Part shown: positions 3,757 to 56,695 of the stretch, piece by piece
Position numbering within the stretch: position 1 is the first letter of the stretch
Layout: each line of letters opens with the position of its first letter
DNA from: an uncultured Sulfolobales archaeon
Lineage (GTDB): Archaea > Thermoproteota > Thermoprotei_A > Sulfolobales > Desulfurococcaceae
DNA length: 64,000 bases
Direction of reading: 5' to 3'
Assembly (NCBI GenBank): GCA_938045475.1
Contig: CALIML010000009.1
Coordinates: 1 to 64,000, forward strand
Position numbers and translations under genes: made by a program
The notes under the pieces: model-generated
Told to the model about the DNA's origin: nothing
What the model saw: the letters and a program-made list of their open reading frames with translations, nothing else
Databases searched by the model: none

Positions 3757-3770
3757 ATAGCTATTTAAAC
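3757..3770 (+). promoter_or_regulatory. TATA promoter of tRNA-Phe
   Basis: The sequence ATAGCTATTTAAAC has a TATA-like core CTATTTAAA about 26-35 nt upstream of the tRNA-Phe 5' end at 3796. It lies just after box D of the sRNA, so the two RNA genes appear to have separate promoters. Confidence 0.5.
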
Positions 3771-3795: not shown

Positions 3796-3890
3796 GCCGC
3801 CGTAGCTCAGCTGGGAGAGCGCCCGAGGAGCATCTGGCTCCGGCGAAGCTGAAGACCGGGTGGTCGGGGGTTCAAGTCCCCCCGGCGGCA
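3796..3890 (+). tRNA. tRNA-Phe(GAA) with 22-nt non-canonical intron
   Basis: The acceptor GCCGCCG/CGGCGGC, discriminator A, T arm GGGGG-TTCAAGT-CCCCC and anticodon loop CTGAAGA (GAA at 3851-3853) identify tRNA-Phe. The 5' strand of the anticodon stem is interrupted: CCCG (3822-3825), then 22 nt, then the last stem base G (3848). Removing 3826-3847 restores a standard 73-nt tRNA with stem CCCGG/CCGGG. The intron lies between positions 30 and 31 rather than 37/38. A BHB fold is present: helix CGCC/GGCG flanked by bulges cga and aag, with inner hairpin GGAGC/GCTCC. Confidence 0.93.
3826..3847 (+). other. tRNA-Phe intron at position 30/31 (BHB)
   Basis: The 22-nt intron runs from the third base of bulge 1 (cg|a) to the second base of bulge 2 (aa|g). 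Those are the positions archaeal splicing endonuclease cuts. The inner stem GGAGC/GCTCC closes a 5-nt loop ATCTG. Confidence 0.85.
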
Positions 3891-4025
3891 CTCGTCGCTA
3901 TTATAACTATGGGCTACGCTCAATGCCGGCGATTAGAGTCTTCGTAAAAACATTAATAGTTCTTTAGGTTAAAATGAGCTGATAGCTGCGAATATTTAGC
4001 TAGGGTTAGGAGCTGTCGCTTAGCC

Positions 4026-4592
4026 ATGGAGGCAGTGTTTATTCCATTAACAAGGTACTTAGTTGACGACTTTATTGATGAATGGGCTAAGTTAGTGAAC
4101 GATAGCTATTCAAGGGCTGGAGTTGGCGTTCACATACTCATATGGCCTAGGACTGAGAGCCCTCCAATAAAGTGCTTTAACTTCAATAGAGTTCAGTATC
4201 ACAGTACCTGCATACTATCATGGCTTTATGAATCACTTGCAAGTAAAGTAAGCACATACTATTTCATTGGGATTGGCTACATAGATGCATATGTAGAGCG
4301 CTTAAACTTCGTCTTTGGAGAAGCAGCTCCAGGCATGAGGGTTGCCGCAGTCTATACTAAGAGGCTTCTACCGCAATTCTACGGCCGCGGGCCCAACTAC
4401 AACTTATACTATGAGAGAGTGGCTAAGGAAATAGTACACGAGCTCGGCCACTTACTTAACTTAAGCCACTGCGTGAATAGGGCGTGCGTCATGAGTTTCA
4501 GCAATAGCGTTAATGAAGTGGATTTAAAGAGCAGGTTCCTATGCGACAAATGCAGCAGATCTCTAGTGAGCTATATGTCTAAGACGAAATAA
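4026..4592 (+). CDS. amzA: Archaemetzincin-like zinc metalloprotease
   Basis: The 188-aa protein carries the archaemetzincin core near its C-terminus: HELGHLLNLSHC (residues 138-149), then C-x4-C and CDKC, which bind a second zinc. The usual metzincin pattern is HExxHxxGxxH; here the glycine is Asn145. That glycine normally lets the chain turn so the third His can reach zinc, so activity or geometry may be altered, though all zinc ligands and Glu139 remain. No signal peptide is seen, so it is probably cytoplasmic. The substrate is unknown. It runs convergently into the archease gene with a 22-nt overlap. Confidence 0.85.
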   Translation: MEAVFIPLTRYLVDDFIDEWAKLVNDSYSRAGVGVHILIWPRTESPPIKCFNFNRVQYHSTCILSWLYESLASKVSTYYFIGIGYIDAYVERLNFVFGEAAPGMRVAAVYTKRLLPQFYGRGPNYNLYYERVAKEIVHELGHLLNLSHCVNRACVMSFSNSVNEVDLKSRFLCDKCSRSLVSYMSKTK

Positions 4593-5068
4593 GCCCTCCA
4601 CGTTCTTTCACTAAACAGTATCTTCATTAAGTGGTAAGTGACTGCTTTAACTTCAATCCTCGGGATATGCTTGTCCAAGTCAAATTCCTCTCCGCTACAA
4701 AAGCCCGCGAGCTCATACTCAACTCCATCAGTAGCTCTGCGGACTTCGAGTTTTTCAGCAACTACTTCTCTGCACATGATGTTCTCAGAGTAGTAAAGTA
4801 TAAGTAATTCTTCAAGCCACTTATACAAAAGGCTCTCAAAGTCGAATCCAAGGGCTTTAATAACTTTCTTAACTCTTCCATTAATCCTACTAGTGTCAGT
4901 CATAGTTTCAAAAAGCGCTAGACCAGCATTACTGAATAATTCAAGTAGATCGCTGCCGTATGCCGCTATGTATACATCGGCTGTGTGCTCTAAGTACTCA
5001 AACTTGCGTCGTGCTTCATTCGCAGATGCTCCGCACGTAGATGGAGCACCGTGCTCCAGCTCATTCAC
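4571..5068 (-). CDS. Archease (RtcB cofactor)
   Basis: Archease activates the RNA ligase RtcB, which joins tRNA exons after intron removal; this fits a genome with intron-bearing tRNAs, two of them in this window. The family opening FEYLEHTADVYIAAYG and the C-terminal IEVKAVTYHLMKI are present. The start is uncertain. An ATG at 5131 would add 21 residues absent from the family, while GTG 5068 has a GGTGGAG ribosome site just upstream; even from there about 20 extra residues precede the conserved core. RtcB itself is not in the window. Confidence 0.9.
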   Translation of the reverse strand: MNELEHGAPSTCGASANEARRKFEYLEHTADVYIAAYGSDLLELFSNAGLALFETMTDTSRINGRVKKVIKALGFDFESLLYKWLEELLILYYSENIMCREVVAEKLEVRRATDGVEYELAGFCSGEEFDLDKHIPRIEVKAVTYHLMKILFSERTWRAYFVLDI

Positions 5069-5149
5069 CTCTCCACCATAATGTTTTTGCTGCAGCCCAC
5101 TGCACTTGGAGTACAATGAATGCCTGGTCATTTAGGTGCTTCAACGTAT

Positions 5150-56592: not shown

Positions 56593-56695
56593 GCCGCCGT
56601 AGTATAGCCCGGTCAAGTATGCGGGCCTCTCGAGCCCGTGACACCCTCCGGGCCCCTGGGTGCGGGAGACCCGGGTTCAAATCCCGGCGGCGGCA
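56593..56695 (+). tRNA. tRNA-Glu(CTC) with 28-nt intron in the variable region
   Basis: Acceptor GCCGCCG/CGGCGGC, discriminator A, anticodon stem CGGGC/GCCCG with loop CTCTCGA (CTC at 56629-56631), and T arm CCGGG-TTCAAAT-CCCGG. Between anticodon stem and T stem are 32 nt instead of 4. Removing 56641-56668 leaves variable bases TGAC, a normal tRNA-Glu of 75 nt. The fold is an exact BHB: CCCG (56635-56638) pairs with CGGG (56663-56666), bulges TGA and AGA, inner stem CACCC/GGGTG. Confidence 0.92.
56641..56668 (+). other. tRNA-Glu intron at about position 45/46 (BHB)
   Basis: The 28-nt intron is set by cutting after the second base of each 3-nt bulge (TG|A and AG|A). The inner stem CACCC (56642-56646) and GGGTG (56658-56662) closes an 11-nt loop. 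Position in the variable loop is non-canonical. Confidence 0.85.

Follow-up and report, generated by a model that had tools for sequence, protein, structure and literature searches.

How archaeal tRNA genes acquire introns is an open question in the field; the proposed sources include introns borne by integrases and transposition from one tRNA to another. The question arises at a tRNA-Phe(GAA) gene at positions 3796-3890 (+ strand) of the window, by which we mean the whole 64,000-nt stretch of DNA analysed here. The gene does not encode its CCA end and carries a 22-nt insert in the anticodon stem, between tRNA positions 30 and 31. We consider it likely that this is a functional tRNA gene with a bulge-helix-bulge (BHB) mini-intron, and that it represents the endonuclease-free form at a site also used by selfish DNA.

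The layout of 3796-3890 is GCCGCCG UA GCUC AGCUGGGA GAGC G CCCG [AGGAGCAUCUGGCUCCGGCGAA] G CUGAAGA CCGGG UGGUC GGGGG UUCAAGU CCCCC CGGCGGC A, with the intron in square brackets. Exon 1 (3796-3825) covers tRNA positions 1-30, the intron AGGAGCATCTGGCTCCGGCGAA occupies 3826-3847, and exon 2 (3848-3890) covers positions 31-73, all on the + strand. All possible single excisions of 11-69 nt were compared by script, and the removal of 3826-3847 gave the single best-scoring full cloverleaf, with the loop CUGAAGA, the anticodon GAA (3851-3853, + strand) and a 5-nt variable loop. This bears out the preliminary description, in which removing the same segment was said to restore a tRNA-Phe. The Rfam tRNA model scored 51.9 bits on 3796-3890 and gave the same ends. 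On inspection, TTTAAA at 3764-3769 (+ strand), ~27-32 nt upstream of the gene, is a possible TATA element.

ARAGORN called 3796-3891 as a tRNA-Arg(UCU) without an intron, because the intron hairpin was taken for the anticodon arm. A regular tRNA-Arg(UCU) is present on another contig of the assembly (C14, L006), the orthologous intron-free genes in relatives are tRNA-Phe(GAA), and no other tRNA-Phe was found, so that the intron-less tRNA-Arg reading deserves practically no credence. Such genes are thus miscalled by tRNA scanners, and the miscall at this position may persist in annotation pipelines. It had also been pointed out that a second, intron-free tRNA-Phe(GAA) gene would make this copy a relic, with the other gene being the functional one. 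The 1.29-Mb assembly is 89% complete, which means that a second tRNA-Phe could be missing from it. However, none was found among its 37 tRNAs, the exons are perfectly paired, and each relative genome has a single tRNA-Phe exon-2 match. In addition, a genome of the same genus (G001) keeps both parts of the gene, with conserved exons and an intron that is identical except for two substitutions. A relic is therefore highly improbable.

The exon-intron junctions form an exact BHB core of the 3-4-3 type. The 5' strand of the central helix (CGCC, C3820-C3823) pairs with the 3' strand (GGCG, G3842-G3845), and the helix is flanked by the 5' bulge C3824-G3825-A3826, with a predicted cut between G3825 and A3826, and the 3' bulge A3846-A3847-G3848, with a predicted cut between A3847 and G3848 (all + strand). 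This agrees with the junctions described previously, at the third base of the bulge CGA and the second base of the bulge AAG around the helix CGCC/GGCG. Within the intron, GGAGC (3827-3831) pairs with GCUCC (3837-3841) to form a 5-bp stem closed by AUCUG, the hairpin (3827-3841, + strand) that gave rise to the tRNA-Arg(UCU) call by ARAGORN. The 4-bp helix and the 5-bp stem occurred together in register at a frequency of 5.5e-5 in 200,000 shuffled 22-nt introns. The outer helix on the exon side has 2 bp only (A3818-G3819 with C3849-U3850), and these pairs, A23-U33 and G24-C32, are invariant because they are tRNA bases. The BHB is absent from the minimum-energy fold of the precursor at 37 °C, as predicted by a model that also misfolds the mature tRNA.

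Comparison with other genomes provided evidence that the helix is maintained. The 3' junction was searched for in 214 genomes belonging to the order and in a further set of 398 drawn from the phylum. After whole-tRNA reconstruction, tRNA-Phe precursors interrupted at 30/31 were recovered in 38 distinct versions. Across 33 distinct core sequences of such introns, 96.1% of the pair cells were formed, compared with 73.0% in shuffles and 31-41% when the partners were slid by 1-3 columns. The covariation score was 0.597 versus 0.149 in shuffles, and none of 500 shuffles scored as high. Compensatory double changes (G26-C to A26-U and C28-G to U28-A) preserve the exon-intron helix; the change of position 26 from G to A, with the partner intron base changing from C to U, was seen in five cores from different classes. 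The sequence of the intron stem varies freely among the 33 cores while its pairing is retained.

The endonuclease EndA cleaves within the two 3-nt bulges of a BHB. The preliminary description had assigned the intron to the heteromeric form of this enzyme, and both subunits were found in the window's genome. The catalytic subunit (L038) has its best PDB match to 3p1z_B, of the Aeropyrum pernix type (1.6e-45), and conserves the HAP and RKK motifs. Its K-P-K aligns with the Crenarchaea-specific loop, the lysine being aligned by eye to the K44-P45-R46 described for this loop (PMC12397907). The second subunit (L039) is present but divergent. RtcB and archease are encoded as well. Archease, an activator of the RNA ligase RtcB, adjoins the tRNA-Phe locus at 4571-5131 (- strand; Pfam PF01951, 2.6e-40), and an archaemetzincin gene (peptidase M54) lies at 4026-4592 (+ strand; Pfam PF07998, 1e-25); both are conserved in synteny with the tRNA-Phe gene. 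In the precursor, the exon bases C25-C28 would pair with GGCG near the 3' end of the intron, (alpha-beta)2 EndA would cut both 3-nt bulges, and RtcB with archease would join the halves. Excision of 3826-3847 by EndA is thus a well-supported prediction from sequence.

A stem-located 22-nt intron had been regarded as unusual and as a good lineage marker, and neither view is supported. Position 30/31 is already listed as a non-canonical site (PMC4090602), and 673 non-canonical introns had been recorded in 217 archaeal genomes by 2021 (PMC8450103). Among 40 genomes of the window's family, 16 have an intron at 30/31 in tRNA-Phe, 19 do not, and the gene was not found in the other five. In the phylum, several families and also several classes have tRNA-Phe introns at this position. 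The 30/31 intron is scattered even among members of a single genus, which makes it a poor lineage marker. It was observed that one of the 19 genomes lacking a 30/31 insert (G019, L083) has a 14-nt insert at 37/38, and that other members of its genus have either no insert or one at 30/31. Of the 19 empty alleles in the family, 18 share the exon sequence GAGAGCGCCCG^GCTGAAGA around the 30/31 site.

The 16 carriers in the family fall into 10 genomes with introns of 22-84 nt and six with long introns. In five of the latter (G005, G015, G017, G031, and G034), the tRNA-Phe halves lie 633-670 nt apart and the insert sits exactly at 30/31; the sixth (G023) is known only at a contig end. Two of the carriers are the Desulfurococcales archaeon MAGs S144_56_esom and T10_maxbin2_scaf2bin.134 (accessions WAPN01000014.1 and JALVYU010000026.1). 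The long introns share the junctions of the mini-introns, have a long terminal stem, and encode a protein of ~200 aa. This protein contains GIMIGDGSL and GIFDTDGTI, both motifs of the LAGLIDADG type. Its reading frame reaches the last base of the intron, and the stop codon is the UGA supplied by U33-G34-A35 of the tRNA. The protein matches Pfam LAGLIDADG_3 (2.4e-12), and its AlphaFold model (pLDDT 84.8) resembles I-Tsp061I (TM 0.71) and I-DmoI (TM ~0.64-0.72), which are homing endonucleases encoded in archaeal introns.

The endonuclease gene is intact in G005 and G015 and decayed in G017 (one stop), G031 (shifted frame), and G034 (several stops). The dN/dS values were low, at 0.16/1.94 for G005-G015, with dS near saturation, and 0.013/0.095 for G005-G017. 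Exon-2 matching found a single tRNA-Phe in each carrier genome. Any use of this one gene would therefore require the long intron to be spliced out. A split tRNA was considered for the distant 3' halves in the relatives and rejected, as the 5' half is found on the same strand, 665-702 nt upstream, and the endonuclease frame lies in between; for the window copy it was rejected since the halves are 22 nt apart in one gene. A related LAGLIDADG gene was also observed in the 16S rRNA gene (L132) of G017.

The order tRNA-Phe, M54 peptidase, archease identifies the locus as orthologous in the window, the endonuclease carriers, and the genomes with mini-introns or no intron. At this same locus, the tRNA-Phe gene is intron-free in G036 and eight other genomes checked, G036 being congeneric with four endonuclease carriers, and mini-introns are found in the window and in G001, G003, G004, G012, G016, and G027. 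This neighbourhood is kept across most of the family, whether the intron is present or absent. The 22-nt intron of the window has no endonuclease, and no match to the relatives' endonuclease (P0001) was found in the window's genome. At a single syntenic locus, members of one family thus have empty sites, mini-introns, and endonuclease introns both decaying and intact, so that intron gain can be tested there by a simple cleavage assay.

Two further ARRANGEMENTS were found: endonucleases beside tRNA-Phe in another class, and a tRNA-Lys(CUU) intron in one genome (G674). In the former (family f14), relatives of the endonuclease lie directly upstream of tRNA-Phe in four of four cases, at 26-37 nt where measured, and the flanked tRNA-Phe genes have their own 29-30-nt introns at 30/31. 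These flanking endonucleases are the closest other relatives of the tRNA-Phe intron endonuclease (30-34% identity, E ~1e-22); they are intact in G360 (L229), G370 (L228), and G596 (L255) and decayed in G598 (L257). An endonuclease beside a mini-intron tRNA-Phe may be the forerunner of tRNA introns that encode the endonuclease themselves. The tRNA-Lys(CUU) gene of G674 (L258:1417-2157, - strand) contains a 666-nt intron at 22/23 that encodes a 224-aa LAGLIDADG endonuclease, whose stop codon lies within the tRNA-Lys anticodon loop. Read by eye, the BHB of this intron is AGGU/GCCU, with cuts at AG|G and AA|A. The f14 and G674 loci (L228, L229, L255, L257, and L258) were scanned for group I introns, and no match reached the gathering score.

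The other ~200-aa relatives of the endonuclease that were checked all lie in SSU or LSU rRNA genes and none in tRNAs, and a scan of viral contigs gave matches of 27-28% only. In the phylogenetic tree, the tRNA-associated endonucleases cluster beyond shuffled labels (0 of 500), and the fork has a support of 85/87. The group is weakly resolved because of this support and its long branches, and a single origin of these proteins is possible.

The sequences show the anatomy and covariation of the intron, the conserved locus, the coding and decayed endonuclease genes, and the empty sites; we infer splicing, DNA cleavage at 30/31, and homing. Cleavage by the double-motif LAGLIDADG endonuclease of the relatives is most likely directed at position 30/31 of tRNA-Phe genes that lack the intron, homologous repair would then copy the intron into the cut gene, and EndA and RtcB would render the insertion harmless; the endonuclease gene would afterwards decay and be lost. 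Endonuclease gain, decay, and loss would explain empty, mini, decayed, and full introns at one syntenic locus, and the conserved exon bases around 30/31 would permit transfer of the intron between species. This points to selfish mobile DNA as something that tRNA introns here can constitute or derive from. A broader reading, to which we give slightly less than even weight, is that tRNA genes of Thermoproteota are homing targets, with one LAGLIDADG lineage specialised on tRNA-Phe 30/31 and others on tRNA-Lys 22/23, and that some short introns, possibly including that of the window, are leftovers. If true, it would provide a concrete mechanism for intron gain in archaeal tRNA genes.

For the 22-nt intron itself, descent from a homed endonuclease intron that shrank after losing its gene is somewhat doubtful. 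The family has both intact and decaying endonuclease introns at the same site, and two other short introns resemble the ends of the long ones: the 84-nt intron of G002 starts with GGACACCCACACCGGGA, which matches GGACACCCGTGCCGGGA in the endonuclease intron of G015 (9 of 1000 shuffles were as good), and the 43-nt intron of G058 matches the end stem of the long intron (0 of 1000). However, the similarity of the window intron to the ends of the long introns was marginal (26-37 of 1000 shuffles as good, uncorrected), and 30/31 mini-introns without an endonuclease occur across several classes.

Mini-introns at 30/31 without an endonuclease are found in many families, including those of other classes, and because of this they may predate the endonuclease. 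The tRNA-Phe mini-introns would then be old, and endonucleases would have invaded them later, initially from an adjacent position with cleavage at the site of the intron and subsequently from inside it, with the window preserving the state before invasion. We regard this history as evenly balanced between true and false. It accords with the occurrence of 30/31 mini-introns in several classes and with the f14 endonuclease lying next to, rather than within, a tRNA-Phe whose intron has 29-30 nt. However, the 19 empty genomes among the 40 of the family would require many losses or repeated gains, and the tRNA-Phe endonucleases of the two classes form no single supported clade apart from those of rRNA introns. 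A third proposal concerns upkeep: the intron may be kept because it shields the tRNA gene from the integration of viruses and plasmids, following the idea of Randau and Soll, which is a general proposal for archaeal tRNA introns (PMC4090602, PMC3218864). This seems unlikely for the present locus, as a 30/31 intron would equally protect against the endonuclease itself, which is a simpler pressure with genomic evidence.

The window copy fits fully with the non-canonical archaeal tRNA BHB introns (Marck and Grosjean; Sugahara et al.; the tRNAscan-SE 2.0 set), with which it shares the position 30/31, the BHB, the short length, and a heteromeric EndA in the genome. Archaeal tRNA introns were reported to span 11-129 nt in a 2014 review (PMC4090602), whereas the long 30/31 introns of the relatives have 633-670 nt and encode an endonuclease. 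The latter resemble the 16S/23S rRNA introns of the I-DmoI, I-PorI, and I-Tsp061I type in having BHB ends of the EndA type and a double LAGLIDADG protein of ~200 aa. The rRNA BHB introns with endonucleases have been divided into coding, remnant, and hairpin classes (PMC4496867), and the tRNA introns of the window's relatives show the same mix. However, they differ from the rRNA introns in that the host is a tRNA and the reading frame terminates within its anticodon loop, and in that one tRNA-associated group has the endonuclease beside the gene.

The split tRNA-Lys(CUU) of Staphylothermus and Nanoarchaeum is also joined at 30/31 (PMC3218864). The window tRNA-Phe has the same joint position and a BHB, but both of its halves belong to one gene and one strand. 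In bacterial tRNA genes, homing endonucleases have been described within group I introns (PMC3984707); there, too, the endonuclease lies in a tRNA intron, whereas the archaeal introns have BHB ends for the protein EndA and not a ribozyme. In the full-text literature searched, mostly outside subscription journals, no report of a homing endonuclease within an intron of an archaeal tRNA was identified. The window copy alone is a known type of intron, and the new part is the tRNA intron at the same site that encodes an endonuclease.

Introns of 650 nt would probably make tRNA-Phe appear missing or split in genome annotations. It should also be noted that a second tRNA gene with additional sequence lies in the window. 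The tRNA-Glu(CUC) gene at 56593-56695 (+ strand) has 28 extra nt in its variable region compared with tRNA-Glu(UUC) (L012); we read this insert, which was missed by ARAGORN, as another non-canonical intron.
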